NCBI RefSeq assembly: GCF_028994805.1
Contig: NZ_JAJQQP010000021.1
Span: 1 to 58,306 of the forward strand
DNA: 58,306 nucleotides
Origin: Promicromonospora iranensis
GTDB taxonomy: Bacteria; Actinomycetota; Actinomycetes; Actinomycetales; Cellulomonadaceae
Direction of reading: 5' to 3'
Shown: positions 5,960 to 56,417 of the stretch, piece by piece
Layout of the letters: each line of letters opens with the position of its first letter
How positions within the stretch are numbered: the stretch's first letter is position 1
The notes under the pieces: model-generated
Told to the model about the DNA's origin: nothing
Seen by the model: the letters and a program-made list of their open reading frames with translations, nothing else
The model's database searches: none
Translations under genes and position numbers: made by a program

Positions 5960-5989
5960 CGCTGGACCGAACCACGCTGGACCGAACCA
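5960..5989. repeat. Two perfect 15-bp tandem copies before the reductase gene
   Basis: CGCTGGACCGAACCA occurs twice back to back (5960-5974, 5975-5989), ending just before the ribosome site of the gene at 6000. It belongs to the window-wide set of short tandem duplications. Confidence 0.9.
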
Positions 5990-5999
5990 GGGAGAGACC

Positions 6000-6554
6000 A
6001 TGATGGATGTGCTCGTGCACGGCGCCGCCGCAGGCGGAGACGCTACGTGGAGCAGCGTAGGGACCGCGGCCCTCTGGGTGGTCGCCGGCCTGGCGGTGCT
6101 GGCGCTCGGCGTGCTCCTGGCACTCGTGCTCGCCATGCGCACCAAGCACCCCCGGGCACTCGCCGTCATCCGGGGTTTCAACCGGCGGTTCAACAACCCT
6201 CGGATGCTGCGGGCCGCGGGCAGGGCCGGGTCCAAGCTGGCCGTGGTCAGGCACGTGGGACGGCGCTCCGGGACGTCGTACGCGACGCCCATCGGCGTCT
6301 TCCCCCTGGAGGACGACTTCCTCGCCATCCTCTCGTACGGGTCCGACACGGACTGGCTGCGCAACATCCGCGCGGCCGGCTCGGCGGAGCTGGTGTCCGA
6401 CGGGCAGACGTACCGGGTGGCAGCCGGACAGGTCATCGGTCGGGACGAGGCGCTGCCCTACGTGCCCTCGGGACAGCTGCCGTTCGTGCGCCTCTTCGGA
6501 GTCACCGACTTTCTCGTGCTGCAGCGCGTCCCCGTGACCCACCCCGCGGCCTGA
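6000..6554 (+). CDS. Deazaflavin (F420)-dependent nitroreductase-family protein
   Basis: A 184-residue protein of the Ddn/F420H2-dependent reductase family. Family motifs include LAVVRHVGRRSGTSYATPIGVFPLEDDFLAILSYGSDTDWLRNIRAAG, where the GRRSG turn and the SYG..DWLRN stretch contribute to cofactor binding in known members. One membrane helix lies at about residues 19-45, so it should be membrane attached. ATG at 6000 or 6003, with GGGAG upstream. It probably reduces a quinone or xenobiotic; the substrate is unknown. Confidence 0.85.
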   Translation: MMDVLVHGAAAGGDATWSSVGTAALWVVAGLAVLALGVLLALVLAMRTKHPRALAVIRGFNRRFNNPRMLRAAGRAGSKLAVVRHVGRRSGTSYATPIGVFPLEDDFLAILSYGSDTDWLRNIRAAGSAELVSDGQTYRVAAGQVIGRDEALPYVPSGQLPFVRLFGVTDFLVLQRVPVTHPAA

Positions 6555-6571
6555 CGTCGCGGTGAGCTGGC

Positions 6572-6748
6572 TCAGGCGGCGGGCGGGCGGTCGCCCTCGC
6601 CGGTGAGCGTGGCCGCGGCGGGCCGGCTCCGCCGTCCGACGACGAAGCCCACCGCGCCGCCGACAAGGAGCGCTCCGGCGCCCGAGAGCAGCGCCGCCGC
6701 GCGCGACGGACGGGGTGTCGAGGACCGTGGTGCTGTCGTGTCGGCCAT
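6572..6748 (-). CDS. Possible small membrane protein
   Basis: A 58-residue frame from ATG 6748 (an upstream TTG at 6775 would add 9 residues). It encodes one hydrophobic segment (AAALLSGAGALLVGGAVGFVVGRRS) flanked by polar ends, with positive charges after the helix. No good ribosome site is visible. The layout is plausible for a small single-pass protein, but homology cannot be judged from the sequence alone. Confidence 0.4.
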   Translation of the reverse strand: MADTTAPRSSTPRPSRAAALLSGAGALLVGGAVGFVVGRRSRPAAATLTGEGDRPPAA

Positions 6749-6816
6749 CGGCCCGGGCCGGGTCGCCGGGTGCAACCGTCGGCCTGGGGGGGCAACCGTC
6801 TGCCGGGCGGCAACCG

Positions 6817-8734: not shown

Positions 8735-8869
8735 ACGGCACGGACCGCGGCGCCGGAGCGTTCATCGCCGGGCAACACGCGGTTCAGGGCGCCGACACCG
8801 GTGGTTGTCAGGGTGGGCCGCGCTTCCGCCCGGATCGGGAGCACACCCCCGAACCCGAGGAGCCCCGCC

Positions 8870-11653: not shown

Positions 11654-12432
11654 CGGCGCCCCCGGCGATCGAGGTGGCCGACGTCGCCGTCCGCTACGGC
11701 GAGGTCCTGGCCCTGGACGGCGTGTCCCTGAGCATCGCGCCGGGACGGGTGACCGGGCTGGTCGGGATGAACGGATCGGGCAAGTCGACGCTGTTCAAGG
11801 CCATCATGGGCATGGTCCGCCCCGACCGCGGGCACGTCCTGATCGACGGCGCCGCCCCCGTCGCGGCGCGCCGGCGGGGCCTTGTCGGCTACGTGCCGCA
11901 GAGCGAGGACGTCGACTGGGCCTTTCCCGTCTCCGTCCGGGACGTGGTCATGATGGGCCGCTACGGCCGGCAGGGCCTCACCCGGCGCGCCCGGCCCGCC
12001 GACCACGTCGCCGTCGCCGACGCCCTCGACCGCGTGGAGCTCACCGGCTACGCCGAGCGGCAGATCGGGCAGCTCTCCGGCGGACAGCGCAAGCGCGCGT
12101 TCGTCGCCCGCGGCATCGCCCAGGACGCCCGGATCCTGCTGCTGGACGAACCCTTCGCCGGCGTCGACAAGCGCTCGGAGGCCACCATCGTGCGGCTGCT
12201 CAGAGAGCTGGCGGACGACGGCCGCACCGTCCTGGTGTCCACCCACGACCTGCACGCCCTCCCGCGGCTCGCGGACGAGGCGGTGCTCCTGCTGCACCGG
12301 GTCCTGTTCCACGGCGACGTGTCGGAGGCGCTACGGCCGGACCACCTCGCCCGGGCCTTCGGCCTCGACGTGCTGGACCTGGACCTGGACCGGGACCAGG
12401 ACCAGGACCTGAACCGGGAGGGACCCGCATGA
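11650..12432 (+). CDS. Manganese-type ABC transporter ATP-binding protein
   Basis: A 260-residue ATPase starting with GTG at 11650, overlapping the stop of the binding protein (GTGA). Walker A GMNGSGKST (39-47), signature LSGGQRKRAF, Walker B ILLLDEP and switch His in STHDLHAL are all present. It ends in an unusual Asp-rich tail (LDLDLDRDQDQDLNREGPA) encoded by 6-bp repeats at about 12373-12418, absent from typical family members. Powers uptake with the permease downstream. Confidence 0.93.
   Translation: MTAPPAIEVADVAVRYGEVLALDGVSLSIAPGRVTGLVGMNGSGKSTLFKAIMGMVRPDRGHVLIDGAAPVAARRRGLVGYVPQSEDVDWAFPVSVRDVVMMGRYGRQGLTRRARPADHVAVADALDRVELTGYAERQIGQLSGGQRKRAFVARGIAQDARILLLDEPFAGVDKRSEATIVRLLRELADDGRTVLVSTHDLHALPRLADEAVLLLHRVLFHGDVSEALRPDHLARAFGLDVLDLDLDRDQDQDLNREGPA
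12373..12418. repeat. 6-bp tandem units coding an Asp-rich tail
   Basis: Successive GACCTG, GACCGG and GACCAG hexamers (about seven) extend the C terminus of the metal ABC ATPase just before its stop. The unit keeps the frame, giving alternating Asp and Leu/Arg/Gln. Confidence 0.8.
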
Positions 12433-14260: not shown

Positions 14261-14317
14261 CTCAGCTCCTCCAGAGTCCACGGTCGGCCTCGTCGCCGAT
14301 CGTCGCTACCGTCAGTA

Positions 14318-14353
14318 CACGTCACCACACACGTCACCACACAGGTCACCACA
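14318..14353. repeat. Three 12-bp tandem units spanning a stop codon
   Basis: CACGTCACCACA (14318-14329), the same again (14330-14341), and CAGGTCACCACA (14342-14353). The last unit covers the stop codon of the 3-hydroxyacyl-CoA dehydrogenase gene. Confidence 0.9.
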
Positions 14354-15239
14354 GGTAGAAGCCCTGCCCGGTCTTGCGTCCCAGCTCGCCCGCCGCGACC
14401 TTGTCCCGGAGCACCTGCGGCGGCGCGAACCGTGGCCCCAGCTCGCGCTCGAGGTGCTCGGCGATGTCCAGCCGCACGTCGAGCCCGACGATATCGGTGG
14501 TGCGCAACGGACCCACCGGGTGCCGGTAGCCCAGGGTCATCGCCGCGTCGATGTCAGCGGCGTCGGCCACGCCCTCCTCCAGCATGCGCATGGCCTCCAG
14601 CGCGATGGCCACACCGAGCCGGCTGCTCGCGAAGCCCGGCGAGTCCCGGACGGTGATCGCCGTCCTGCCCAGCCCGGCGACCCAGCGCTGGGCTTCCCCG
14701 ACCAGGCCGGGCGCGGTCCGCCGTCCGACCACCACCTCGATCAGGTCGCTGACCGGGACGGGATTGAAGAAGTGCAGCCCGACCAGGCGCGACGGGTCGG
14801 GCAGCGCGTCGGCCAGGACGTCGATCGACAGGGAGCTCGTGTTGCTGCCGACGGCCGCACCGGGGGCCACGGCGGCGATCCGCCGCAGCACGTCGCGCTT
14901 GAGGTCCGCCAGCTCGGGGACCGCCTCGACCACCAGCGCGCAGCCCGCCAGCGCGGCGGCGTCGGTCACCACCTCGAACGTGCCGGTCGCCCGCACGCCT
15001 CTGTCCGCTGCCCTGTCCACTGCCCTGGCCGCCTCCTTGGCCGCCTCCTTGGCCGCCGCCTTGGCGAGGCTCGCGGCGATCCGCTCGCGCGCCTCCCCCG
15101 CCGACGCCGCGTCGCTCTCGACGACGGTGACGGCGGCGCCCGCGATCACGAAGGCGTGCGCGATGCCGGCGCCCATGCGCCCGCCGCCGTACACCCCCAC
15201 GTTCTCCGGGACGGTGCGCCCGGTGGTGTGCTCTGTCAT
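14346..15239 (-). CDS. paaH: 3-hydroxyadipyl-CoA dehydrogenase
   Basis: A 297-residue 3-hydroxyacyl-CoA dehydrogenase. Rossmann motif GGGRMGAGIAHAF, substrate/catalytic motif VGLHFFNPVP (catalytic His) and the C-terminal domain with GRKTGQGFYLW. In the paa pathway it oxidises 3-hydroxyadipyl-CoA to 3-oxoadipyl-CoA. One helix of the NAD domain is built from 12-bp repeats at 15001-15060 (AAAKEAAKEAARAVDRAADR). Its start overlaps the paaF stop by 4 bases, so the two are coupled. Confidence 0.9.
   Translation of the reverse strand: MTEHTTGRTVPENVGVYGGGRMGAGIAHAFVIAGAAVTVVESDAASAGEARERIAASLAKAAAKEAAKEAARAVDRAADRGVRATGTFEVVTDAAALAGCALVVEAVPELADLKRDVLRRIAAVAPGAAVGSNTSSLSIDVLADALPDPSRLVGLHFFNPVPVSDLIEVVVGRRTAPGLVGEAQRWVAGLGRTAITVRDSPGFASSRLGVAIALEAMRMLEEGVADAADIDAAMTLGYRHPVGPLRTTDIVGLDVRLDIAEHLERELGPRFAPPQVLRDKVAAGELGRKTGQGFYLW
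15001..15060. repeat. 12-bp tandem units within paaH
   Basis: Five adjacent 12-bp units of two related types (CTGTCCGCTGCC-like at 15001-15024, TTGGCCGCCTCC-like at 15025-15060) encode an Ala/Lys/Glu-rich helix. All keep the reading frame. Confidence 0.8.
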
Positions 15240-17031: not shown

Positions 17032-17032
17032 G

Positions 17033-18523: not shown

Positions 18524-18557
18524 TCTACATGTGCGGGACATCTACATGTGCGGGACG
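18524..18557. repeat. 17-bp tandem duplication across the paaB stop
   Basis: TCTACATGTGCGGGAC plus one base occurs twice in a row (18524-18540, 18541-18557). The second copy covers the last codons and stop of paaB, so the final codons are repeated in the spacer out of frame. Confidence 0.92.
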
Positions 18558-18838: not shown

Positions 18839-19839
18839 GCCGTCCTCGGCCCGTCGCTCGTGTCGCTGCTCGTGTCACTGCTCGTGTCACTGCCGTCGCC
18901 GGCCGCGAACGCGAGCGCCGCCTCGCGGACCCACGCGCCGTCGTCCCAGGCCTTCTTGCGGTGCGCGACCCGCTGCGCGTTGCACGGGCCGTTCCCCTTC
19001 ACGACGTCCCAGAACTCGTCCCAGTCCGGCTGACCGAAGTCGTGCGCGCCGCGCTCCTCGTTCCAGACCAGCTCGGGGTCGGGAAGGGTCACGCCGAGCG
19101 CCTTCGCCTGCGGAACCGTCATGTCGACGAAGCGCTGGCGCAGCTCGTCGTTCGTATGCGTCTTGACGCCCCACGCCATGGACCGGGCGGTGTTGGGCGA
19201 CTCGTCGTCCGGCGGGCCGAACATCATCAGCGACGGCCACCAGAACCGGTCGACGGACTCCTGGACCATGGCCCGCTGCTCGTCGGTCCCGCGCATCATC
19301 GTCATCAGCAGCTCGTAGCCCTGCCGCTGGTGGAAGGACTCCTCCTTGCAGATGCGGATCATCGCCCGGCCGTACGGGCCGAACGACGTACGGCACAGGG
19401 GCACCTGGTTGCAGATGGCGGCGCCGTCGACCAGCCAGCCGATGGTGCCCACGTCCGCGTACGAGAGCGTCGGGTAGTTGAAGATCGAGGAGTACTTCTG
19501 CCGCCCGCTGATCAGCATCTCGGTGAGCTCCTGGCGCGAGACGCCCAGCGTCTCCGCCGCCGAGTACAGGTAGAGGCCGTGCCCCGCCTCGTCCTGGACC
19601 TTCGCCAGCAGGATCGCCTTGCGCCGCAGCGACGGCGCGCGGCCGATCCAGGCGCCCTCCGGCTGCATGCCGATGATCTCGGAGTGGGCGTGCTGGGCGA
19701 CCTGCCGCACCAGCGTCCTGCGGTAGGCGTCGGGCATCCAGTCGCGCGGTTCGACGCGGTCCTTGCGGTTGATCACGGCTTCGAAGCGCGCCTCGAGCTG
19801 GGCCTCGCTCTCCTGCTCGGGCTCGGCGACTACCGGCAT
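18835..19839 (-). CDS. paaA: Phenylacetyl-CoA epoxidase catalytic subunit PaaA
   Basis: A 334-residue di-iron subunit that epoxidises the ring of phenylacetyl-CoA. Iron-ligand motifs DEAGH (83-87) and EESFH (166-170) are intact. Translation starts at ATG 19839 behind GGAGG. The C terminus carries an extra Ser/Asp/Thr tail ([12 protein letters not shown]) made by three 12-bp repeats, which looks like a late addition. First gene of the eight-gene minus-strand set; divergent from paaZ with a shared control region. Confidence 0.96.
18857..18892. repeat. Three 12-bp units encoding the PaaA tail
   Basis: CTCGTGTCGCTG (18857-18868), then CTCGTGTCACTG twice (18869-18880, 18881-18892), adding three SDTS units to the end of PaaA. 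Confidence 0.92.
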
Positions 19840-19984: not shown

Positions 19985-20014
19985 CAGTGAGCACACAGAC
20001 AGTGAGCACACAGC
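19985..20014. repeat. 15-bp tandem duplication at the paaZ start
   Basis: CAGTGAGCACACAGA (19985-19999) is followed by CAGTGAGCACACAGC (20000-20014). It includes the chosen GTG start and duplicates the first codons (STQTVSTQ), creating a second in-frame GTG with a similar context. Confidence 0.88.
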
Positions 20015-22104: not shown

Positions 22105-22142
22105 CGCGCCCGTCTGGGACGATCGCGCCCGTCTGGGACGAT
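22105..22142. repeat. Perfect 19-bp tandem duplication before paaR
   Basis: CGCGCCCGTCTGGGACGAT occurs at 22105-22123 and again at 22124-22142, ending 6 bases before the paaR ATG. It could change promoter or leader spacing of the regulator gene. Confidence 0.95.
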
Positions 22143-22800: not shown

Positions 22801-23250
22801 ATGACCACTGACCGAACCAGTGACCGGACCAGTGACCGGACGGCCGGTGATCGCATGCAGGAGCCGTGGACGATCACCCTGGGCGCCCTCGACGAGAAGC
22901 TGGGCATCCAGGTCCTGGAGCAGTCGGCGCAGCGGGTCATGGCCACCATGCCGGTGGCGGGAAACACCCAGTCGCTGGGTCGCCTGCACGGTGGCGCGAC
23001 CGCTGCGTTCGCCGAGGCGCTCGGCTCCTGGTGCGCACTGATCCACGCGAGCACGCTGGGCAAGGTGTGCGCGGGCGTGGACCTGAACATCACGCATCAC
23101 CGGGGAGCGACCGACGGGATCCTGACCGGCACGGCGACCCCCGTCCACCTCGGCCGCACCATCACGTCGCACGAGATCGTCGTGACGGACGCACAGGACC
23201 GGCGCATCTGTACGGCGCGCATCACCAACCAGCTGATCGAGCCGCGCTGA
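22801..23250 (+). CDS. paaI: PaaI hotdog-fold acyl-CoA thioesterase
   Basis: A 149-residue thioesterase that releases CoA from stalled ring intermediates. The hotdog motif is NTQSLGRLHGGATAAFAEALGSWCALIH, followed by VDLNITHHRGATDGILTGTATPVHLGRT. ATG 22801 lies 4 bases after the paaR stop; it gives an N-terminal tail of DRTS repeats. A later ATG at 22855 sits in a duplicated CGGTGATCGCATG context and gives the more usual length, so it may be the true start. Confidence 0.88.
   Translation: MTTDRTSDRTSDRTAGDRMQEPWTITLGALDEKLGIQVLEQSAQRVMATMPVAGNTQSLGRLHGGATAAFAEALGSWCALIHASTLGKVCAGVDLNITHHRGATDGILTGTATPVHLGRTITSHEIVVTDAQDRRICTARITNQLIEPR
22809..22841. repeat. 12-bp tandem units at the paaI start
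   Basis: TGACCGAACCAG (22809-22820), TGACCGGACCAG (22821-22832) and a partial third copy encode repeated SDRT near the N terminus. Confidence 0.85.
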
Positions 23251-23493: not shown

Positions 23494-25269
23494 TTAGGCG
23501 GCTTCGGCTTCTGATTGAGGCGGGGCTTCGAGGGCGTCGGGCAGGGTGATGCGGTGTCCGCGGGCGTCGGTGAAGGCCCACCCGGTCTCGATCAGGGCGC
23601 CGGGCGCGGTGGCGCTCGACGTGGTGGTGGTTTTGCCGGTCCAGTGCATGGTGATGCCTCGGGTGTCGACGAGCTGGTGGTGGTACCAGCACAACAACGC
23701 ACTGTTGGACACGGAGGTGTCTCCACCGTGAGCCCAGTGAGTGACCGCGTGGTGCACCTCGCACCTCGATGGCGGCTGATCACACCCCGGGAAGACGCAG
23801 TGCTGGTCTCTGGCGATCACCGCTCGCCGCATCTGCCCGGTGACGGTGCGTTGTGCGCGGCCGACGTCCAGGACCGTGCCGTCGGGTCCGAACACGATCC
23901 GAGTGACCGCACTGTCACACGCCAAACGGCGCAGCAGTGCTCGTGGGGCGCGGTCACCGGTCTCGGTGAACACGGGGCCACCACCGGACAGCAGGCGGGA
24001 CACCGTCACGGCGCCTCCAGTTGCTGGGCCTCTAGTTGCTGGGCCGGCGGCTGGCGGGTCTGCGTTCGTCGGAGCCATACCCGTGCTCGCGCCCGGTGCA
24101 CCTGCACCTGCACCTGTGCTTGTGCCTGCGCTTGAGCCGGGTGCTTCTGCGCCGGGCGCGCGGCCGGGTGTGCGGCCGGGTGTGCGGCCTGGTGTGGTTT
24201 GTCCGCAGGTCAGGCACAAGCCTTCGCGGGTGCGGGTGGCCTGAGCGACCAGCTCGGTCCAGGACACCGTGACATTCAGGTGGGGCGGGATCGCCGCACC
24301 AGGAGACGCCTGGTTCGTGTCCAGAACCACCCGGGCGACGTCCGCCAGACCCTGTGCCCGGCGCTGCGTCGACGTGCGGGTGTCTTCCGCTGAGGGGGCG
24401 CCGAGGATCGCGTTGATCGCTGCGGTGACCAGGAGGCCGTGTTCGTCGGTCAGGAACCCTGCGAGGTGGTAGCCGCCGAAGGTTTTGGCCAGGTCGAGGA
24501 ACTCGCCCAGAGCGGCCTTGTCGTCATCCACGTCATCCGTGTCGGGGTCGGTGATCGTCGCGAACCGGCGTGCCACGATCCGGAACTGGTCCGCGTTCAA
24601 CGAACCCGCCTCCCGCAGGACCAGACCCTCACCCGTGACCAGCGTCCCGTCCGTGACCGCGTCCTCCAACACCTGGGTGATGAGCTGACGGGTGTGCTCC
24701 CCGTCGGGGTCCTCGGCCGGGTCGGGGAAGTCGACCGGCACGGTCTGCACGAACGCCTCCGGGGTCGTCCGCTCACCCGTACGGGTATCGATCAACCAGG
24801 CCAACGCGTCGGTGCGGGTCTCGCTGGTCGGGGCGACCTTGGTCATCACACGAGCATGGTCCGCACCGAGGGTGCCCGCGACCAGGCCTTCCCGGGTCCC
24901 AGGCAGCGCCGTGGCCAGGCGGCGGGCCATCGTCATGTCCTTACCCGCCGTCACCGCAGAGATACCTTCCCGGAGCCGTAGCCAGGTGGTGAACGCCCGC
25001 GCCATCCCACCTGAGCGCCAGGACCCGTCCGCCTCGATCCTCGACAGCAGGGTGTACCGCACACCGTCGAGGCGGCCGGTCATCCGGCGGATCCGGGTGT
25101 GCGCCTCCATCAACCGGCCCACGGTCGGCGGATCCCACCCGTCCAACACCTCCGGATCGGTCAGGACGGCGAGTTCGTCCATCACGTTCTCGAACCGGGC
25201 CAGTGTCTCCTCGATCGACTCGGCACTGGGCAGGCCACCGGCTGGCACGCCGTTCGTCGACTGCTCCAC
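23494..25269 (-). CDS. DUF222 / HNH endonuclease-domain protein (13E12 type), intact copy
   Basis: A 591-residue protein. The N-terminal DUF222 region spans about 25-370. A Pro/Gly/Thr-rich linker follows (TPGR repeats from 24161-24196). The HNH nuclease domain is at about 480-545: CVFPGC, CEVHHAVTHW, NSALLCWYHHQLVD, with paired Cys, His-His, Asn and His present. GTG 25269 is used because the paralogue at 57382 starts identically. Its upstream region carries an SOS-like box. The biological role of this large actinobacterial family is unknown; 13E12-repeat genes in Mycobacterium tuberculosis include members of the LexA regulon. Confidence 0.92.
   Translation of the reverse strand: MEQSTNGVPAGGLPSAESIEETLARFENVMDELAVLTDPEVLDGWDPPTVGRLMEAHTRIRRMTGRLDGVRYTLLSRIEADGSWRSGGMARAFTTWLRLREGISAVTAGKDMTMARRLATALPGTREGLVAGTLGADHARVMTKVAPTSETRTDALAWLIDTRTGERTTPEAFVQTVPVDFPDPAEDPDGEHTRQLITQVLEDAVTDGTLVTGEGLVLREAGSLNADQFRIVARRFATITDPDTDDVDDDKAALGEFLDLAKTFGGYHLAGFLTDEHGLLVTAAINAILGAPSAEDTRTSTQRRAQGLADVARVVLDTNQASPGAAIPPHLNVTVSWTELVAQATRTREGLCLTCGQTTPGRTPGRTPGRAPGAEAPGSSAGTSTGAGAGAPGASTGMAPTNADPPAAGPATRGPATGGAVTVSRLLSGGGPVFTETGDRAPRALLRRLACDSAVTRIVFGPDGTVLDVGRAQRTVTGQMRRAVIARDQHCVFPGCDQPPSRCEVHHAVTHWAHGGDTSVSNSALLCWYHHQLVDTRGITMHWTGKTTTTSSATAPGALIETGWAFTDARGHRITLPDALEAPPQSEAEAA
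24161..24196. repeat. 12-bp tandem units in the HNH linker
   Basis: CGGCCGGGTGTG twice and CGGCCTGGTGTG once encode the TPGR-type linker between DUF222 and HNH. In frame throughout. Confidence 0.88.
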
Positions 25270-25578: not shown

Positions 25579-26991
25579 TCAGAGCCGCACGATCGCCGCC
25601 AGCGGGTTCTCGATCGCGTCGGCGACGGAACGCATGAAGCCGGCCGCCGTCCCGCCGTCGCAGACCCGGTGGTCGAAGACGAAGGACATCTGCGTGATCT
25701 TGCGGGGCACGATCTCCCCGTCGACGACCCACGGCCGGTCGATGATGCGACCGAAGCCCAGGATCGCGACCTGCGGATGGTTGATGATCGCCGCGCTGCC
25801 GTCGACCCGGAAGCCGCCGTAGCTGTTCAGCGTGAAGGTCCCCGCCGTGAGCTCCTCCGACGTCGCCTTGCCGACGCGGGCGCGCGCGACCAGGTCACGG
25901 AGGGCCGCATCGAGCTCGACGGTGGTCATCTCATCGGCCCCGAGCACCGCCGGGACGACCAGGCCCTGCTCACCCTGGACGGCGATCCCGAGGTTGATGC
26001 GGTCGAACTCGACGATCTCGTCACGCTCCACGTCGAGCCGCGCGTTCAGCACCGGGTACTCCTTGAGGCTCGCGACGACGAATCGCGCGAGATGGGCGAG
26101 CAGCCCCGGCCCCGTGTCGGCGGGCGTACGGCTCGCCTCGCGCAGGTCCCAGAGCGCCGTCGCGTCGACGTCGACCCAGACGGTCGCCTCCGGGATCTCC
26201 GAGCGGCTCCGCGACAGCACCTTGGCCGCCGTCCGCTGGAAACCGCTGAGCGGGATGCGCCGCTCGCCGGGAACGTCGGGAACGCTGGACGCGACCGCGC
26301 CCGGCGAGGCGGACGGCGCAGCGGCACCCCGCGCAACGGCACCCCGCGCAACGGCACCCCGATGCGACGCGGGAGCCGCGTGCTCGATCGCCGACCGCAC
26401 GTCGGACCTGGTGACGACCCCGCCGGCCCCGGAGGCCGCGATCGCGCGCAGGTCCAGCCCCGCCTCCCGGGCGAGCCGCCGGACGATCGGCGAGATCACC
26501 TTCACCGGGCGGTCGCCCGCGGTCGCGGCGACGACGGGCGACGTCGGCCGGGAGCCGCGCGGCCGACGCCGGCGACCCGAGCCGGCGTGCTCGGAGGTCC
26601 CGTACCCGATGAGCACGTTGCCGGAACCGGCCCGCTCCTCCTCGCGATACGCCTCGGCGGCCTGCTTGTCACCCGACCCACCCTTACCTTCAAGTTCAAG
26701 TGGAGGGTCAGACTCAGGGTCGGACTCGGGCCCGACACCCCCAGCACTCACGGTGATCAGCGGCTTGCCCACCTCGAGAAGGTCCCCCTCGGCGGCGTGC
26801 AGGGCGGCGACCCGGCCCGCGTACGGGCTGGGCACCTCGACCACCGACTTCGCCGTCTCGACCTCCACCACCGGCTGGTCGACGGCGACGGCGTCGCCCT
26901 CGGCGACCAGCCAGCGCACCACCTCAGCCTCGGTGAGGCCCTCGCCCAGGTCGGGCAGGAGAAAGGTCTGCTCCGTCGCCGTCGCGGTCAT
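25579..26991 (-). CDS. bkdC: Branched-chain 2-oxoacid dehydrogenase E2 (dihydrolipoyl acyltransferase)
   Basis: A 470-residue E2. One lipoyl domain (about 1-85, lipoylated Lys48 in VETAKSV), a peripheral-subunit-binding domain (ISPIVRRLAREAGLDL...GVVTRSDV, about 175-215), and the catalytic domain with His441 and Asp445 (DHRVCDGG). Linkers are Asp/Glu- and Ala/Arg-rich; one is made of 15-bp repeats (26316-26360). Start overlaps the bkdB stop (ATGA). Transfers acyl groups to CoA in branched-chain amino-acid breakdown and fatty-acid primer supply. A pyruvate-type complex is less likely given the E1 sequences and Lrp neighbour. Confidence 0.9.
   Translation of the reverse strand: MTATATEQTFLLPDLGEGLTEAEVVRWLVAEGDAVAVDQPVVEVETAKSVVEVPSPYAGRVAALHAAEGDLLEVGKPLITVSAGGVGPESDPESDPPLELEGKGGSGDKQAAEAYREEERAGSGNVLIGYGTSEHAGSGRRRRPRGSRPTSPVVAATAGDRPVKVISPIVRRLAREAGLDLRAIAASGAGGVVTRSDVRSAIEHAAPASHRGAVARGAVARGAAAPSASPGAVASSVPDVPGERRIPLSGFQRTAAKVLSRSRSEIPEATVWVDVDATALWDLREASRTPADTGPGLLAHLARFVVASLKEYPVLNARLDVERDEIVEFDRINLGIAVQGEQGLVVPAVLGADEMTTVELDAALRDLVARARVGKATSEELTAGTFTLNSYGGFRVDGSAAIINHPQVAILGFGRIIDRPWVVDGEIVPRKITQMSFVFDHRVCDGGTAAGFMRSVADAIENPLAAIVRL
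26316..26360. repeat. Three 15-bp units in the E2 linker
   Basis: GCGCAGCGGCACCCC, then GCGCAACGGCACCCC twice (26331-26345, 26346-26360), encoding an ARGAV linker repeat. Confidence 0.9.
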
Positions 26992-30191: not shown

Positions 30192-30200
30192 CGACGCCCC

Positions 30201-30228
30201 AGGACCGGAGCACCAGGACCGGAGCACC
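30201..30228. repeat. Perfect 14-bp tandem duplication after a stop codon
   Basis: AGGACCGGAGCACC twice in a row, starting 10 bases after the end of the small membrane-protein gene. A non-multiple of three, in noncoding DNA. Confidence 0.92.
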
Positions 30229-30282
30229 AGGGTTCGCGTCCGGCCCGTCGCCGTCGTAGACCGCCGGGTCGGGGAGCGTCGC

Positions 30283-34980: not shown

Positions 34981-35045
34981 CTGTCAGGTGTCGCTGTCAG
35001 GTGTCGCTGTCAGGTGTCGCTGTCAGGTGTCGCTGTCAGGTGTCG
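34981..35045. repeat. Five perfect 13-bp tandem repeats
   Basis: CTGTCAGGTGTCG is repeated five times without a mismatch, between the stop of the ThuA/dehydrogenase gene and the start of the hypothetical membrane protein. There are no spacers, so it is not a CRISPR array. Confidence 0.97.
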
Positions 35046-39542: not shown

Positions 39543-40466
39543 TCAGGGCATCAGTCCTCTCAGGTGGGCGAGGCCCTCGAGGGCGAGGGCGTCCTGGCTG
39601 GCGGCGAGCGGCCGCCAGATCGAGGCAGCGGTCGCGATGGTGGCGTTCTCGCCCGTGAACGACTCGATGACGAGCGGGCCGTCGTACCCGGCCTGCTCCA
39701 GCGCCGCGAGCAGCGCCGGCCAGCCGATGCCGTCGCCGCCGGGCGCTCCGCGGTCGTTCCCGCAGACCTGCACCGCGGCGATGCGCGCCCCGGCGCGCTC
39801 GACCGCGGCGGGCAGGTCCCGCTCCTCGATGTTCATGTGGTAGACGTCGAGCATCAGCCCGATCCCCTCGGCGGGCAGAGGGGTGACGATCGCGAGCGCC
39901 TGGTCCACCGTGTTGACCAGGCTCGTCTCGTAGCGGTTCAGCGGTTCGAGACCGACGACGACGCCCGCTGCGATCGCGTGCTCGACGACGGGCGCGAGGT
40001 TCTCGACGAGCTCGGCGCAGGCGTCGGCCCGCTCCTGCGCCGTCGTCCGCCAGGTGCGTCCCACCGACGCGTACGCCGGGCCGCCGATCACCCGCGCGCC
40101 CACCGTGTGCGCGGCGTCGACGACCGCGCGCAGGTAGTCCTGCGTCGCCCGCACGGTGCCCCCGTCCGTGGCGACCAGCTCGCGGCCCTCGCCCATGACG
40201 AGGGACACGCTCGCAGCCAGGCCGTGGTCGGCGAGCAGCCGCGCCGCGCGCTGCGGGTCCCAGTCGCCCAGGCGCTCCACGGGGAGCTCCAGGACGTCGA
40301 ACCCCCAGCCCGCGACGCGCGGTGCGATCTCGGCGAGCGAGCGGTCGGTGAGCGGCGACGTCCACACCCAGGTGTTGACGCCGACCGGCCAGGTGGTCGC
40401 GGTCCCTGCCGGCACGGTCCTCGACGGCACGGTCCTCGACGGCACGGCTCTCGACGGCACGCCCAT
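39543..40466 (-). CDS. Sugar phosphate isomerase/epimerase (TIM barrel)
   Basis: A 307-residue xylose-isomerase-like TIM-barrel protein, similar to ketose 3-epimerases. Metal-site-type motifs are GLEPLNRYETSLVNTVDQAL, LMLDVYHMNIEE, IAAVQVCGNDRGAPG and VIESFTGE. The first 20 residues are a five-residue repeat (AVPSRTVPSRT) from four 15-bp units. The ATG at 40466 directly abuts the stop of the binding-protein gene. Probably interconverts the sugar imported by the adjacent CUT2 system. Confidence 0.88.
   Translation of the reverse strand: MGVPSRAVPSRTVPSRTVPAGTATTWPVGVNTWVWTSPLTDRSLAEIAPRVAGWGFDVLELPVERLGDWDPQRAARLLADHGLAASVSLVMGEGRELVATDGGTVRATQDYLRAVVDAAHTVGARVIGGPAYASVGRTWRTTAQERADACAELVENLAPVVEHAIAAGVVVGLEPLNRYETSLVNTVDQALAIVTPLPAEGIGLMLDVYHMNIEERDLPAAVERAGARIAAVQVCGNDRGAPGGDGIGWPALLAALEQAGYDGPLVIESFTGENATIATAASIWRPLAASQDALALEGLAHLRGLMP
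40401..40460. repeat. Four 15-bp tandem units at the epimerase start
   Basis: GGTCCTCGACGGCAC-type units at 40401-40415, 40416-40430, 40431-40445 and 40446-40460; the middle two are identical. They encode the repeated VPSRT start of the epimerase. Confidence 0.95.
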
Positions 40467-43776: not shown

Positions 43777-45353
43777 GCCGCACCCGTGGCCAGGGCCATG
43801 ATGGTCTCCTCGTCGCTGCCGCCCGGCAGCTCGCCGGCGACCCGGCCGTCGCGCAGCACGAGGACGCGGTCGGCCATCGCCACCACCTCCGGCAGCTCCG
43901 ACGAGATGAGCAGCACCGCCGTCCCCTCGGCGGTCAGCGTGCGCATGAGGTCGTAGACGGCGCGCTTGGCGCCGACGTCGATGCCGCGCGTCGGCTCGTC
44001 GAGGACGATGACCCGTGGCTCGGTCACGAGCCACTTCGCGAGGACCACCTTCTGCTGGTTGCCGCCGGACAGGTACTGCACCTCCACGTCCCGCGCGGAC
44101 GCCACCGTGCTCGCGGGTACGGCGAGGGAGCGGAGCACGCCCGGGACGCCCCGCGCCCGGCGGTCCGACGCGCGCGGCAGGACGGCGTCGAGCACGAGCC
44201 GCGCGTTCGCCAGCACCGACTGCCCCAGGGCGAGGCCCTCGGACTTCCGGTCCTCGGTGACGAGCGCGAGGCGGTGGCGTACGCCCTGCCGGGGCGTCCG
44301 CACGCGGACCGGCTGTCCGTCGACGGTCATCCGGCCGCGTGTGAACGGCGCGATGCCGAACACGCCGTGCGCGATCTCGGTACGGCCCGAACCCTGCAGG
44401 CCGGCGAGCGCGACGATCTCCCCGGCCCGCACCTCCAGGTCGATGCCGTCCACCATCGAGTTGCCGGCACCCTCCAGCGCCAGCCGCACCTCGCCGGGCA
44501 CCTCCCCGGCCACCTCACCAGACAACTCGCCAGACAACTCGCCAGACAACTCACCAGACACCGTGTCGGCGGGCTTGTCCGGGAAGAAGCCGGCGAAGTC
44601 GCGGCCCACCATGGTCCGCACCAGCCGGTCCGGGCTCACCTCGGCCGCCGGCGCCGTGAGCATGTGGTTGCCGTCCTTGAGCACGGTGATCGTGTCGGCC
44701 AGGTCGTAGATCTCCTGGAGCCGGTGCGAGACGTACAGGATCGCGACGCCGCGGTCCCGCAGCCGCCCGACCAGCTCGTAGAGCAGCGCCACCTCCTGCT
44801 CGGCGAGCGCTGCGGTCGGCTCGTCCATCGAGATGATCCGGGCGTCGTACGAGACGGCCTTGACGATCTCGACCACCTGCTGCTGCGCCACGGACAGCGA
44901 CCCCACCCGCGTCCAGGGCGTGATGCTCGTCAGTCCCAGGTCGTCGAGGAGGCGGCTCGTGTCGGCGTGCAGCCGGCGGCGGTCGACCATGCCGCGCCGG
45001 AGCGGTTCGCGGCCGAGGTACACGTTCTCGGCGACCGACCGGTCCGGTAGCAGGTTGAACTCCTGGAAGACCGTGGCGACGCCGGCGCGCTGGGCGTCGA
45101 GCGGGGTAGCGAAGGAGACCGGAGCTCCGTCGAGCTCGATGGTGCCGGTGTCCGGACGGTGCACCCCGGCGACGACCTTCATCAGCGTCGACTTGCCGGC
45201 CCCGTTCTCGCCCACCAGGGCGTGGACCTGGCCGGGAAAAAGGGTCAGGTCGATCTCTCGCAGCACCGAGGTGCCGAAGAACTCCTTGCCGACGCCACGA
45301 AGGCGCAGGACCGGGTCAGGTACGGGAGTGTGCGCGTCGTCATCGGCTCGCAT
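43773..45353 (-). CDS. CUT2-type sugar ABC transporter ATP-binding protein (two-domain)
   Basis: A 526-residue RbsA/YtfR-type double ATPase. The first domain has Walker A GENGAGKST, VAQQQVVEIVKAV and Walker B IISMDEPTAAL; the second has a degenerate Walker A (GLQGSGRTE), signature LSGGNQQKV and VIVLDEPTRGID. The linker carries four SGEL repeats from 12-bp units. ATG 45353 lies 7 bases after a -10 box, so the mRNA is probably leaderless. First gene of the sugar operon, divergent from the ROK regulator. Confidence 0.93.
   Translation of the reverse strand: MRADDDAHTPVPDPVLRLRGVGKEFFGTSVLREIDLTLFPGQVHALVGENGAGKSTLMKVVAGVHRPDTGTIELDGAPVSFATPLDAQRAGVATVFQEFNLLPDRSVAENVYLGREPLRRGMVDRRRLHADTSRLLDDLGLTSITPWTRVGSLSVAQQQVVEIVKAVSYDARIISMDEPTAALAEQEVALLYELVGRLRDRGVAILYVSHRLQEIYDLADTITVLKDGNHMLTAPAAEVSPDRLVRTMVGRDFAGFFPDKPADTVSGELSGELSGELSGEVAGEVPGEVRLALEGAGNSMVDGIDLEVRAGEIVALAGLQGSGRTEIAHGVFGIAPFTRGRMTVDGQPVRVRTPRQGVRHRLALVTEDRKSEGLALGQSVLANARLVLDAVLPRASDRRARGVPGVLRSLAVPASTVASARDVEVQYLSGGNQQKVVLAKWLVTEPRVIVLDEPTRGIDVGAKRAVYDLMRTLTAEGTAVLLISSELPEVVAMADRVLVLRDGRVAGELPGGSDEETIMALATGAA
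44511..44558. repeat. Four 12-bp units in the sugar ATPase linker
   Basis: CACCTCACCAGA, CAACTCGCCAGA twice, CAACTCACCAGA. They encode consecutive SGEL/SGEV units between the two nucleotide-binding domains. Confidence 0.93.
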
Positions 45354-45490: not shown

Positions 45491-46678
45491 ATGCTCATCG
45501 AGGACCCCCCGCGAGGGGTGCCCCTGTCCCTGGGCACAGGCGAGTTCTTCCAGCTGCTGCGCGACCGCGAACCGCGCACGCGCGCCGACCTGGTGGCCAT
45601 CACCGGCCAGGCCAGGTCGACCATCGCGACACGGATCGACGCACTCATGAGCACGGGGCTCATCGGTCCCGCCGGCATGGCGGGCTCCACCGGCGGCAGG
45701 CGGCCGGCGACCTTCGCCTTCCAGCCGGGCGCCAGGGTGGTCCTCGCGGTCGACCTCGGCGCCACGCACGCCCGCCTGGCCGTCACCGACCTCGCTTCCA
45801 CCGTGCTCGCGGCGAGCGACGAGCCCTTCTCGATCGCCGCCGGCCCGGACGTCGTCCTGCCCTGGGTGGCCCGGGCCGGCCGGGACCTGCTCGCCGCCGC
45901 GGGCCGGGACGCCGGCGACCTGGCCGGCATCGGCATCGGGCTGCCGGGGCCCGTCGAGCACTCGACCGGGCGGCCGATCAACCCGCCGATCATGCCCGGC
46001 TGGGACGACGCCGACGTCCCGGGCGTCCTCGGCGCCGAGTTCGGGGTCGCCGTGCTCGTCGACAACGACGTCAACATCATGGCGCTCGGCGAGCACCGGA
46101 CCGCCTGGCCTGACGTCTCCGACCTGCTGCTCGTCAAGATCTCCACCGGCATCGGGGCCGGCATCATCGCCGACGGGGCCCTCCGCCGTGGCGCGCAGGG
46201 CGCGGCGGGCGACGTCGGGCACATGTCCGTCCCGGGCGCCGACCACGTGCCCTGCCGCTGCGGCAACACCGGCTGCCTGGAGGCGGTCGCGAGCGGCCAG
46301 GCCGTCGCGGCGGCCCTCACGGCCCAGGGGCTCGACGCCACCGACGGCGCCGGCGTCGTCGCACTGGTCCGAGCCCGGGGCTCCGCGGCGAGCCAGGCGG
46401 TCCGCCAGGCCGGCCGCGACATCGGCGGCGTCCTGGCCTCGTGCGTGAGCATGCTCAACCCGTCGGTCATCGTGATCGGCGGGGTGGTCGCCGATGCCGG
46501 CGAGCACCTGATCGCGGGCATCCGCGAGGCCGTCTACCGCAGGTCCCTGCCGCTGGCCACCCAGCACCTGCGCATCGTCACCTCCCGCGCGCGCGACGGC
46601 GCCGGCGTGCTGGGCGCGAGCGCCATGGCCGTCGACCACGTGCTGTCCCCCGCGGCGATCGACGCGCTGACCGCCTGA
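45491..46678 (+). CDS. ROK-family transcriptional repressor
   Basis: A 395-residue regulator. N-terminal winged helix (FFQLLRDREPRTRADLVAITGQARSTIATRIDALMSTGLI, about 15-60) and C-terminal ROK sugar-kinase-like domain: VLAVDLGATHARLAVTD, GIGIGLPGPVEHSTGRP, VDNDVNIMALGEH, and zinc motif CRCGNTGCLEAVAS near residue 254. ATG 45491 is placed 9 bases after GGGAGG; the upstream TTG is too close. Probably represses the divergent CUT2 operon until a sugar binds. Confidence 0.92.
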   Translation: MLIEDPPRGVPLSLGTGEFFQLLRDREPRTRADLVAITGQARSTIATRIDALMSTGLIGPAGMAGSTGGRRPATFAFQPGARVVLAVDLGATHARLAVTDLASTVLAASDEPFSIAAGPDVVLPWVARAGRDLLAAAGRDAGDLAGIGIGLPGPVEHSTGRPINPPIMPGWDDADVPGVLGAEFGVAVLVDNDVNIMALGEHRTAWPDVSDLLLVKISTGIGAGIIADGALRRGAQGAAGDVGHMSVPGADHVPCRCGNTGCLEAVASGQAVAAALTAQGLDATDGAGVVALVRARGSAASQAVRQAGRDIGGVLASCVSMLNPSVIVIGGVVADAGEHLIAGIREAVYRRSLPLATQHLRIVTSRARDGAGVLGASAMAVDHVLSPAAIDALTA

Positions 46679-46694
46679 CCGCCTGACCGCCTGA
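46671..46694. repeat. Three 8-bp tandem units spanning the ROK stop
   Basis: CCGCCTGA three times in a row; the first copy contains the TGA stop of the ROK gene, and each later copy carries another TGA. Confidence 0.88.
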
Positions 46695-46803
46695 CCGGAT
46701 GTCCGGCTGCCCCGCCGAGCGTGCGCCCATACGCTGTGGTGCACGGCATTCCTGCGCTGAGTAACCGGCCACCAGTCCCCGACCGCAAAGGAAACCAGCA
46801 CCC

Positions 46804-48462: not shown

Positions 48463-48482
48463 GCGCCGGGCGAGGCGCGGCC

Positions 48483-48520
48483 GGCCCGCGCCCGGTACCG
48501 ACCGGTACCGGGCGCGGGCC
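48483..48520. terminator. Strong bidirectional terminator hairpin
   Basis: A perfect 17-bp stem (48483-48499 with 48504-48520) and a GACC loop, between the convergent GH13 and permease genes. The GGTACC next to the loop is itself palindromic. The GC stem is followed by a short pyrimidine-rich stretch. Confidence 0.85.
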
Positions 48521-48550
48521 GTCGGCCTTCTCCTCCGGTTGCGCCTCCGG

Positions 48551-49450: not shown

Positions 49451-50388
49451 CGCTGGTTCACCCGCCTCATCGCCATCAGGTAGAAGGCGCAGAACACGAG
49501 CAGGACCACCATCACGGACAGTCCGATCGCGCTGGCCAGGCCGTAGCTGCCCTGCTGGGTGTACTCGATCATCCAGGTGGTGATGATGTGCGTCCGGCCG
49601 GCGGGTCCGCCGGCCGTCATCGCATAGATGATCTCGGGCGAGTTGAACGTCCAGATCGCGCGGAGCAGCACGGTCAGTGCCAGCGTCGTCGAGATGTACG
49701 GGATGACGATCGAGAAGAGCCGCCGCACCGTGCCCGCCCCGTCGATGGCGGCGGCCTCCAGCACCTCGTCCGGCACCGACTGGAGGGCAGCGAGGATCAT
49801 GATCGCGAAGAACGTCACCCCGTACCAGACGTTGGCGATGATCACCGCGGTCATCGCGAGCGCCGGGTCGGCGAGCCAGGGCAGGGGCGCCTCGATGACA
49901 CCCGCTTTCAGCAGCAGGTCGTTGGCCACGCCGAACTCGGCGTTGAACATCCAGCGGAACAGCATCCCGACGAGGAAGCCCGAGACCGCCCAGGGATAGA
50001 ACACGAGCGCCTGATAGACCCCACGGAAGCGGAACCGGCGCCACAGCCCCAGCGCGACGAGGAACCCGATGACGAGCTGCGGGACGATCGAGCCGACCAC
50101 CCACACCACCGTGTTGCGGGCGACCACGGGGAAGACCGGGTCGTTCAGGATCGTGGCGAAGTTCGCCCATCCCACCCAGGGTGTCGACGTGAGGTCCCAC
50201 AGGTTCCAGTCGCGGAAAGCCATGTGGACGCCCTGCAGCATCGGGTAGTACGTGAACCAGCAGACGAAGACGATGGCGGGTGACAAGAACGCCAGGATCG
50301 TCAGCGCGTGCCTGCGCCCGAAGCGCGTGCGGCGGACCGGCGGGCGCTGCTCCTGCCGCCGCGCCGGACGGATGGCGGTAGCCGTCAC
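49447..50388 (-). CDS. CUT1-type sugar ABC transporter permease (MalF-like)
   Basis: A 313-residue permease. The EAA loop reads QSVPDEVLEAAAIDGAGTVRRLFSIVIPYIS; other motifs are WAVSGFLVGMLFRWMFN and the final VVLLVFCAFYLMAMRRV helix. GTG start at 50388, just after the binding-protein stop. Confidence 0.93.
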   Translation of the reverse strand: MTATAIRPARRQEQRPPVRRTRFGRRHALTILAFLSPAIVFVCWFTYYPMLQGVHMAFRDWNLWDLTSTPWVGWANFATILNDPVFPVVARNTVVWVVGSIVPQLVIGFLVALGLWRRFRFRGVYQALVFYPWAVSGFLVGMLFRWMFNAEFGVANDLLLKAGVIEAPLPWLADPALAMTAVIIANVWYGVTFFAIMILAALQSVPDEVLEAAAIDGAGTVRRLFSIVIPYISTTLALTVLLRAIWTFNSPEIIYAMTAGGPAGRTHIITTWMIEYTQQGSYGLASAIGLSVMVVLLVFCAFYLMAMRRVNQR

Positions 50389-50389
50389 G

Positions 50390-51694: not shown

Positions 51695-51755
51695 GTCCAC
51701 ACCTCTCCTTCTTCTCGTTCGGGTGATGGCGGGTGAGGCGCCGGGGCGGCGCTGG

Positions 51756-53826: not shown

Positions 53827-53849
53827 GCGGGGAGTGCCCGCCCCGGCTC
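53825..53849. terminator. Hairpin between convergent stops
   Basis: GAGCGGGG and CCCCGGCTC pair with one bulged base around a 8-base loop. It overlaps the stop codons of both the GntR gene and the DUF1269 gene. Confidence 0.5.
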
Positions 53850-54333
53850 AGGAGCCGAACGTCTCCAGCAGGGTGGAGCGCTCGGCGTCGGTGAGGTTGG
53901 TGGCGATGAGCGTGCCGTGCAGGCCGTTGAAGCGCTCGCCGACGCGGTCCGTGTCGCCGTCCTGGGTCACGGCGAACAGGGCGGACGTCCCGGACGTGAC
54001 CTGTTCGCGGATCGTCTCGAGCTGGGTGCGGCTGATGCCGACGGCCTCGGTGTGCTTGGCGAGGGCCCCGACCGCCGCGCCGGCCGCCGCGCCGACGACC
54101 GGCAGGAGGAACAGCCCGCCCAGCAGCAGACCCCAGAAGGCACCCCATCCGCTCCCGCGGAGCTCGTCGTCGTGCGCGTGCTTCGTGGTCGGTCTGGCCT
54201 GACCGACGGGCCACGACACCACGGCGTGGTCGACCACGGTGATCAGCCCGTCCGACGCGGCGCTCTTGAGGATCGAGGCGGCCTCTGCCGCACCCTCGGG
54301 GCTGTCGAACTTCCAGACGGTGAACATGGTCAT
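53848..54333 (-). CDS. DUF1269-family membrane protein
   Basis: A 161-residue protein. It starts MTMFTVWKFDSPEGAAEAASILK, has VVDHAVVSWP in the N-terminal domain and a Gly-rich hydrophobic hairpin (WGAFWGLLLGGLFLLPVVGAAAGAAVGAL), then a C-terminal domain with TSALFAVTQDGDTDRV. These match DUF1269, of unknown function. GGAGGAC lies upstream of 54333. Confidence 0.87.
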   Translation of the reverse strand: MTMFTVWKFDSPEGAAEAASILKSAASDGLITVVDHAVVSWPVGQARPTTKHAHDDELRGSGWGAFWGLLLGGLFLLPVVGAAAGAAVGALAKHTEAVGISRTQLETIREQVTSGTSALFAVTQDGDTDRVGERFNGLHGTLIATNLTDAERSTLLETFGS

Positions 54334-54469
54334 CGTGGTCTCGTCCTCCCGGGGCGTTCGAGCGTGCTCACTCGATGGTGGCACCCCGCCTCGCGCTCCG
54401 CGCGTCGAGGCGGACGGGCAGCTCGGGGAGGCGCTCGGACAGGCGCTCAGGAGGCGTTCGAGCAGGTGA

Positions 54470-55297
54470 TCAGACGGGCGGCGACGGGACCCGCCGCTCG
54501 GCGGCACGTGACGGCGGCGCGTCGACGGCCCACGCCGCGGTGCGCGAGCGGAGCGCGGTGCCCAGGGCGGCGACGACGGCCGACGTCACCCCCGACCCGT
54601 CGAGCGAGCCGTGCCAGTAGCGCACGAGGAGCGTGGTGCGCGCGGAGTCCGCGGCGACGTGCAGCGCGTCGGGTGCGGGCGCTGCATGGACGCCGGGTGC
54701 GGCCGAGACGGCGGGCAGCAGGACGCCGTCGATCTCGTCGTCGCGCAGGTGCGCGAGCCGGACCTCGACGACGCTGCGACGTGCCCCGATACCCGTACCG
54801 TTCACGAGCGGCTCGGAGATGACCGCCGAGTTGGGCACGTGCACGCGGACGCCGTCGTAGGTCTCGAGGACCACCGCACGGCTGTTCAGGGCGGTGACGA
54901 CGCCGGTCCAGTCGCCGAACACCAGCTCCTCGCCGACCTTGACCGGCATCCTGGTCTGCAGCAGGATGCCGGCGCCGAAGTTGTCGGCCAGACCGCGCAT
55001 GGTCAGGACGACCACGATGCCGACCACGACGACGACGGTGAGGATCGGCTGAGTCTGCGCCCCGAGGAACGTGAGCGCGAGACCGATCCCCGCGAGCAGG
55101 ACGAGATAGTTGACGGTGCCCAGCACCAGGTCCTGGACCTGGGGCGTGAGGCCCTTGATCCGAGCCGTCGCGGCGAGCACCGCCCGCCGGGCGTACCGCG
55201 CGGCAAGCCAGGTGCCGAGCAGGGTCAGCGCGGCGAAGAGCACGTCCCAGCCGTCGAGGTCGTCCGTCGAGAAGAAGCGGGCGAGCGCGTCGACCAC
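54470..55297 (-). CDS. Small-conductance mechanosensitive channel (MscS family)
   Basis: A 275-residue channel of MscS type that releases solutes on hypo-osmotic shock. Three N-terminal membrane segments end in the pore-like helix ILTVVVVVGIVVVLTMRGLADNFGAGILLQTRMPVKVGE; the beta domain follows (VVTALNSRAVVLETYDGVRVHVPNSAVISEPLVN). GTG 55297 is chosen for GGGAGG at a good distance. The C-terminal domain is shorter and more Arg-rich than in E. coli MscS. Confidence 0.9.
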   Translation of the reverse strand: MVDALARFFSTDDLDGWDVLFAALTLLGTWLAARYARRAVLAATARIKGLTPQVQDLVLGTVNYLVLLAGIGLALTFLGAQTQPILTVVVVVGIVVVLTMRGLADNFGAGILLQTRMPVKVGEELVFGDWTGVVTALNSRAVVLETYDGVRVHVPNSAVISEPLVNGTGIGARRSVVEVRLAHLRDDEIDGVLLPAVSAAPGVHAAPAPDALHVAADSARTTLLVRYWHGSLDGSGVTSAVVAALGTALRSRTAAWAVDAPPSRAAERRVPSPPV

Positions 55298-55415
55298 GGG
55301 TGCCTCCCTTCCGGCCGCTACGGCCACGCCACCGTGTGCGACGCTCGGCACCCCTCGTCGTCGGAGCCGGCACTGCCTCCGAGGGTACGTTCGGGCGGGA
55401 CGCGCCGCGCGCCGA

Positions 55416-56417
55416 TCAGCCGCCGGTGGCCGAGGGCTTCGGCGTGCCGGTCGGCGTGGGCGACGCGCTGGGGCTCACCGTCGGCCCCGGGGTCGGCCCG
55501 CCCGTCGCCGTCGCGGTCGGGTCGGGGGTCGGCCTCGAGGTGGGTCCGTCAGTCGGGTCCGATGTCGGGGACGGCGTGCCGGCCGTCGGCCCTGTCCCGC
55601 CCCCGCCGCCCGGGCCGCCGCCGTCCCCGCTGTCGCCTCCACCGCCGGAGCCGCCGCCGGCGCCACCCGCACCGGACCCGCCCGCCGTCCCGTCCGGGGT
55701 CCCGCCCGAGGTCCCGTCCGAGCCTGGTGCGGCAGCTCCCGAACCGCCTTCGCTCACGCCGTCCGGGTCCGGCAGGGCACCCGACGGCGTCGTCGCTCCC
55801 CCGCCCTCGACCGCACTGCCCGGGCCGGGTTCGCCGTCCTCGGGCTCGTCAGTGCTACGGGGCCGGTCCTCCGGATCACGGTCCGGGCCGGCCGGGCCGT
55901 CGTCGTCGGTGATCATGAAAGGCAGGTCAAAGGCCACCCACTCGATCGGCCCGGTGGTGTCGGCGTCGGGGCGGTCGCCCCACAGCATGGCCAGCCCGCC
56001 GATGCCCAGCACGAACACCGCGACCACGGCCCCGCCGACCGCCATCGCGACCCGCTTCCGCGAGACCACGCCGGGTGACGCCGTCGGATCGGCTGACGCG
56101 CTCGGATCGGCTGACTCGGTGGGATCGACTGACGCGCTCGGATCGACTGACTCGGTCGGATCGACTGACTCGGTCGGAGCGGGCGATGCGGGCGCGTCCG
56201 CCGGTGCGGGCCCGGGCTCAGCGGCGTCGCCGGACGGCGTCTCCGGCTCACCACCGAGGTGCTGACCCGGCAGGACAGGCCGGTCGGGCTGCTCGGACCG
56301 ACCCCCTTGCTCCACCAGGTCCCACGCCGGACCGCTCACCGAACCCGGCACGGGACCGCCGAGGCGTCCTGGATCGACCTGCTCGATGTGCCGTGTCGGC
56401 CTCGGGTTCTCCCTCAC
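55416..56417 (-). CDS. Hypothetical low-complexity membrane protein
   Basis: A 333-residue protein from GTG 56417. A hydrophilic N-terminal part with six-residue repeats (PTESVD/PSASVD) precedes one membrane helix (RVAMAVGGAVVAVFVLGIGGLAML, about 140-165). A long extracellular-type tail rich in Gly, Pro, Ser, Thr and Asp ends in Thr/Pro repeats, typical of a cell-wall-spanning stalk. A TATCGT -10-like box ends 7 bases before the GTG and no ribosome site is seen, suggesting a leaderless mRNA. Function unknown. Confidence 0.65.
   Translation of the reverse strand: MRENPRPTRHIEQVDPGRLGGPVPGSVSGPAWDLVEQGGRSEQPDRPVLPGQHLGGEPETPSGDAAEPGPAPADAPASPAPTESVDPTESVDPSASVDPTESADPSASADPTASPGVVSRKRVAMAVGGAVVAVFVLGIGGLAMLWGDRPDADTTGPIEWVAFDLPFMITDDDGPAGPDRDPEDRPRSTDEPEDGEPGPGSAVEGGGATTPSGALPDPDGVSEGGSGAAAPGSDGTSGGTPDGTAGGSGAGGAGGGSGGGGDSGDGGGPGGGGGTGPTAGTPSPTSDPTDGPTSRPTPDPTATATGGPTPGPTVSPSASPTPTGTPKPSATGG
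56086..56175. repeat. Five 18-bp tandem units encoding a hexapeptide repeat
   Basis: Units begin GGATCG at 56086, 56104, 56122, 56140 and 56158 and encode alternating DPTESV/DPSASV hexapeptides in the hypothetical membrane protein. The two last units are nearly identical. Confidence 0.9.

Follow-up and report, generated by a model that had tools for sequence, protein, structure and literature searches.

The window analysed here is an entire contig of the soil actinobacterium Promicromonospora iranensis (58,306 bp, C14; the genome comprises 5.84 Mb in 31 contigs), and this text concerns the short tandem arrays that it carries. For the 1443-aa gene of the window the top named relatives are P. 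iranensis (95%), P. umidemergens and P. panici (90% each). An earlier note had reported at least 17 tandem arrays visible by eye and listed 17. All 17 are recovered by Tandem Repeats Finder (TRF) with the positions and periods that it gave and with units of 6-19 bp; details are corrected at 12373, 15001, 18524, 19985, 44511 and 56086, as described below. Such arrays crowd in the window, which forms a regional hot stretch in an otherwise ordinary genome. Genes were predicted with a home-made gene finder, which makes the division of arrays into coding and non-coding approximate. The Promicromonospora genomes used for comparison are G002, which is the sister, G012, G004, G006, G011, G001 and G008. 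Strand is given below where one is assigned.

The leftmost array (5960..5989, 15 bp × 2.0) lies directly upstream of the gene at 6000 and is single copy in G002, the sole relative that aligns there. An ABC ATPase has its C-terminal tail encoded by an imperfect 6/12-bp run at 12373..12419 (plus strand); the slot holds an unrelated 15-bp array in G004 and no array in G006. The array at 14317..14353 (12 bp × 3.1) is located at the stop codon of a 3HCDH-family gene, where G002 and G006 carry different 12-bp arrays and G004, G011 and G001 carry no array. Two adjoining 12-bp arrays, listed as one in the earlier note, occupy 15001..15065 (minus strand) in the 3HCDH-family gene, and the insertion is missing from all six aligned relatives. 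The array at 18524..18556 (17 bp, 1.9 perfect copies) spans the stop codon of the gene 18542-18838, and 12-bp arrays are found in this slot in G002 and G006. The C-terminal tail of the gene 18835-19839 is encoded by 12 bp × 3.2 at 18856..18893 (minus strand), with different repetitive tails in G002, G006, G012, G011 and G001. At 19985..20013 (plus strand; 15 bp, 1.9 perfect copies) the start codon is duplicated, giving VSTQTVSTQ, and none of six aligned relatives has the duplication.

Further to the right, an intergenic array of 19 bp × 2.0 (22105..22142) is single copy in G002 and G012. The array at 22803..22841 (plus strand, 12 bp × 3.2) probably encodes the N terminus of the gene starting at 22801; other arrays stand there in G002 and G006 and none in G011. 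Another one (24151..24196, minus strand, 12 bp × 3.8) is placed within a gene of the DUF222 family. In the gene 25579-26991 the array at 26316..26361 (minus strand, 15 bp × 3.1) falls in the linker of an E2 subunit, with E3-binding and catalytic domain matches on either side, and G006 has a longer, unrelated 15-bp array. Downstream of a predicted stop lies 14 bp × 2.4 (30199..30231), which is not seen in G002. The perfect 13 bp × 5.0 array at 34981..35045 is intergenic between two flanking genes, and about eight diverged copies of its unit are present in G002. The 15-bp array at 40400..40461 (minus strand) probably belongs to the N terminus of the open reading frame (ORF) 39543-40466; it is degenerate in G002 and not evident in G012 or G004. 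The repeat noted at 44511 is part of 12 bp × 6.3 at 44487..44562 (minus strand), located mid-protein in a product with two ABC-domain matches, shorter in G002 and absent from G004 and G012. An 8 bp × 3.9 array (46667..46697, plus strand) spans a stop codon and has two copies in G002. Its unit holds TGA, and later copies place stops in the other frames past the first stop, possibly incidentally. Finally, the repeat at 56086 belongs to 18 bp × 6.2 at 56072..56182 (minus strand), which encodes SVDPTE-like repeats in ORF 55416-56666 and has about two copies in G002. One of the coding arrays is found in an S/D/P/T-rich stretch preceding a hydrophobic segment.

The interval between flanking anchors has a length unlike that of G002 at all 17 slots (at 19985, 22105 and 24161 the measured interval is broader than the array itself), and the proposed length variation of leaders, tails and linkers is thus borne out. 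Ten of 27 arrays of G002 lie at most 100 bp from a window array, whereas 4.0 are expected when the location class is kept (p 0.0015); three of these ten belong to the shared array at 34981. No array conserved across all relatives was found.

The arrays are far in excess of chance. In 50 shuffles, in which predicted genes retained their codon content and intergenic sequence its dinucleotides, TRF (score at least 50, period at least 6, overlapping calls merged) gave a mean of 3.4 arrays and a maximum of 8, as compared with 29 in the window. In the strict count (perfect runs of at least 22 bp with at least 1.9 copies and a period of 8-60) the window has 12 non-coding and 9 coding arrays, 21 in all, and the shuffles have 0.44 on average. 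The strict density is 36 per 100 kb in the window versus 8 in the own-genome background (32 arrays in 400 kb, twenty 20-kb samples outside the window), which itself exceeds its shuffled expectation of 2.6. With TRF the densities are about 50 and about 26 per 100 kb (29 arrays in 58 kb and 103 in 400 kb). The sample sites here and in the other genomes were chosen by hand on known contigs and not drawn at random. From the remaining genome 1.4 non-coding and 2.8 coding arrays are expected in the window, which holds 12 (Poisson p 3e-8) and 9 (p 0.002), respectively. Its 20-kb pieces contain 7, 7 and 6 arrays, and the maximum among 54 background segments, taken from the own and six other Promicromonospora genomes, is 5.

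The earlier note regarded the duplications as pervasive. This does not hold for the genome as a whole: outside the window its 8 arrays per 100 kb are no denser than the 2.5-16 found in 12 of 13 GC-matched actinobacterial genomes outside the genus (80 kb each, GC 0.69-0.75), and six congeners sampled off the syntenic region have 5.6-15. The thirteenth genome outside the genus, G107, has 40 per 100 kb; it is a complete 7.5-Mb genome of the same class, whose four samples, spaced apart, contain 11, 3, 10 and 8 arrays and which appears dense genome-wide, unlike the genome of the window.

The regional excess is shared by relatives to different degrees. The syntenic 57 kb of G002 hold 27 strict arrays (47 per 100 kb) versus 18 per 100 kb in the remainder of that contig. 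Orthologous pieces carry 10 arrays in 37 kb in G012 (27 per 100 kb) and 4 in 16.5 kb in G011 (24 per 100 kb), and the contig C8 of G006, which bears part of the region, has 30 per 100 kb, unevenly distributed (14, 8, 7, 2, 1, 5, 9 and 0 per sample). The pieces of G004 contain one array in 41 kb (2.4 per 100 kb; p 7e-6 versus G002). Positions 48470-51700, with predicted genes at 48551-51700, are lacking in the syntenic contig of G002 and match elsewhere in G004 and G006, and the left contig end (1-400) matches several places in five congeners, some of them at contig ends, as a repeated element does.

Within genes the units keep the reading frame. The claim that in-frame units are multiples of three is confirmed by all 9 strict coding arrays of the window and by 124 of 130 in the pooled samples of the genus (1.57 Mb and 230 strict arrays, hot regions counted in). 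Its counterpart, that units outside frames are not multiples of three, stands only roughly, since 6 of 12 non-coding periods in the window are divisible by three (57 of 100 in the pooled samples). Among these six, 22816, 40410 and 56138 fall within plausible reading frames of greater length, and the array at 19985 extends across a start codon; the exceptions are 5960 (15 bp) and 14317, a 12-bp array located at a stop. At least three of the window arrays scored as non-coding probably encode N termini.

The arrays are also concentrated between genes: 12 of the 21 in the window fall in the 10.5% of bases predicted to be non-coding, and 100 of the 230 pooled ones in 12.8%. In the pooled samples 41 of 130 coding arrays lie at most 60 bp from a gene end, with 16.4 expected; such an excess is not evident in the window alone (2 of 9 within 60 bp, 1.1 expected) or in the 400-kb own sample (2 versus 2.2 expected). 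These counts bear on the proposal that nearly all arrays sit at starts, stops or flexible linkers, and the array at 15001-15065 is placed inside a domain. Duplication followed by a filter of selection, as had been proposed, is in keeping with the in-frame bias and with the enrichment in and close to intergenic sequence. The arrays are largely lineage-specific.

We also compared the divergence of the window with that of three control regions. Faster substitution is unsupported as the cause of the density: the window shares 91.8% identity with G002, and the controls share 93.2, 90.5 and 92.2%. Typing of single indels in pairwise alignments, in which diverged junctions split into many gaps, does not set the window apart either (0.98 intergenic duplication-type gaps per kb versus 0.67, 0.00 and 1.06). 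The lengths of gene junctions do so to some extent: differences of at least 9 bp are found at 40 of 52 junctions in the window, one of 53 with a difference above 1000 bp being omitted, and at 29 of 58 in the controls (p 0.005). When four junctions in the segment that G002 lacks and the two next to the contig end are dropped as well, the count is 34 of 46 (p 0.016).

We suggest that the arrays are locally born short minisatellites sieved by selection and that the window is a regional hot stretch for their birth or survival, a reading that we hold to be probable. A stretch of 8-19 bp would be tandemly duplicated, either by polymerase slippage or by fill-in of a staggered break and end joining. 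Some two-copy seeds might then extend by slippage. Selection would purge the arrays that break the frame or the fold, so that survivors are in frame, or intergenic, at starts, stops, tails and linkers, and tolerant slots could be hit again and again, leaving different units at one slot in sister species. The high density most likely arises because the window lies in a plastic portion of the chromosome, with loose constraint on the length of junctions. Birth and growth are likely accounted for by the known biology of minisatellites, or variable-number tandem repeats (VNTR). A dispersed repeat family is ruled out, as the longest word common to two strict window arrays has 8 bases.

Two-copy arrays bear on the duplication step. 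In the samples of the genus 29 of 53 have 0-2 extra matching bases (48.6 expected without homology) and 22 have at least 4 (1.6 expected); outside the genus the counts are 14 and 7 of 23. Some births thus look homology-free, by seedless slippage or by fill-in and end joining. Others resemble slippage events at short direct repeats, or leftovers of longer arrays. The end-joining protein Ku is encoded in all 23 genomes searched (the own and 22 others) and, with no contrast among them, does not distinguish dense from sparse genomes.

Several points weigh against the reading of minisatellites born in a hot stretch. The 22 arrays with at least 4 extra bases mean that homology-free birth cannot explain everything. 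One array, at 15001-15065, sits in a conserved domain (the NAD-binding match of 3HCDH) and in no linker. The orthologous pieces of G004 are almost empty. Furthermore, the cause of the regional density is one that we infer.

It might be supposed that nothing is special here and that the eye was simply drawn to a dense window in a genome whose minisatellite load is ordinary. The average density of the genome outside the window, the level reached by G107 and the merely twofold or so excess in the TRF count all speak for this. However, the excess of non-coding arrays withstands a hundredfold choice of windows, the syntenic region of the sister is equally dense, and the sampled counts already point to a window far outside the own-genome distribution; we therefore think this explanation improbable. 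Much less credible still is that the arrays are selected as regulatory or structural elements, namely protein-binding iterons or length switches. The perfect 13-bp array at 34981, whose unit is common to G002, would suit such a role. But the units are mutually unrelated, copy number or unit differs in close species at the examined slots, none was found to be conserved in every relative, and all that matches the 34981 region at other places in the genome is short (25-30 bp).

The remaining alternative is a regional mutational hot zone, in which a local factor, perhaps the multi-copy DUF222 genes, makes short tandem duplications arise more often. Proteins with DUF222 often bear an HNH nuclease domain; a Pfam scan did not show one here. 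The window has a DUF222 gene at 23494..25269 (minus strand; PF02720, E 1.4e-22), within the dense region, and a fragment of another at its right end (57382-58230). Such genes occur in several copies in the seven Promicromonospora genomes that were searched, and many matches are found at contig ends, so that they may break assemblies. In favour of a local factor, 25 DUF222 loci of 2.5-4 kb (30 minus five overlapping or hot-region ones) total 89.5 kb and contain 34 arrays, of which 21 fall in the 54 kb that flank the gene, with a genus background of 9.2 per 100 kb. Four neighbourhoods in other species, which are the best four non-own matches by E-value and whose short loci had been seen beforehand, have 13, 9 and 7 strict arrays per 19 kb (L280, L281 and L282, in G012 and G008) and 2 (in G011), versus a background mean of 1.8 per segment. 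The G004 pieces lack both the DUF222 gene there and nearly all arrays.

Dense neighbourhoods thus occur in two of the three other species tested and not clearly in the own genome, where three other neighbourhoods hold just 2, 3 and 3 arrays per 20 kb (p 0.09 versus background) and four DUF222 loci (3.4-3.9 kb) hold a single array; DUF222 as the sole cause is unsupported there. For all seven neighbourhoods together p is 0.004, against background segments that were not cleared of DUF222 genes. The density does not decay steeply with the distance from the DUF222 gene (36, 24 and 26 per 100 kb at 0-2, 2-5 and 5-10 kb), and these genes may merely persist in the same plastic regions. A hot zone of this kind is unlikely in our view. 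Slightly less doubtful, though still speculative, is the idea that Promicromonospora has hot zones of tens of kb, shared by sisters, in which duplications recur at the same gene junctions and which DUF222 genes mark or cause. DUF222 genes are a possible, unproved cause of the array density; we read the data as both the genes and the arrays residing in plastic parts of the chromosome.

The kind of change described here is ordinary. What is left as moderately interesting, and mildly surprising, is the clustering together with the repeated birth of arrays at shared slots. Should the clustering prove real and mutational in origin, short tandem duplications would arise at rates that differ several-fold from one part of the chromosome to another, and the tails, linkers and leaders of proteins would be rewritten repeatedly at the same places, which bears on the source of short insertions in bacterial proteins. 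If it reflects relaxed constraint alone, the window is a clear yet ordinary case of duplication filtered by selection.

Bacterial minisatellites or VNTR consist of head-to-tail units whose copy number differs among relatives, and many of them are coding and in frame. The window arrays are similar, with head-to-tail units of 8-19 bp, copy numbers differing in relatives and coding ones in frame. Unlike those, they mostly have 2-6 copies, are clustered and have units swapped among species, and their variation is known from the comparison of species. By title or abstract, no paper on tandem repeats in Promicromonospora appears in the part of the literature covered. A survey of prokaryotic satellites describes, in its available portion, mostly short repeats, many of which encode amino-acid repeats with periods divisible by three, as in the window, and gives 4.2 per Mb in Streptomyces coelicolor (PMC6749651); it applies other criteria, and its densities cannot be set beside counts in which two-copy arrays are included. 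Regional hot stretches and the reuse of slots are not treated in that portion. In flies and primates most short insertions are tandem duplications, according to the accessible part of PMC2374710. The window arrays suggest a local origin likewise; that study is eukaryotic and, in this part, without a regional hot stretch. Promoter tandem repeats of Mycobacterium tuberculosis, as excerpted from PMC12817950, are also actinobacterial repeats that lie between genes and change in copy number, and their phase variation is shown in deep reads; their units are larger (57 bp), whereas ours are smaller and known from assembled sequences. Small variable segments of bacterial genomes are described in the available text of PMC2884548 as short length-variable loci, in frame within genes or intergenic. 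That study is devoted to strains within species and, in this text, is not centred on tandem units; its loci share the traits just named with those of the window.

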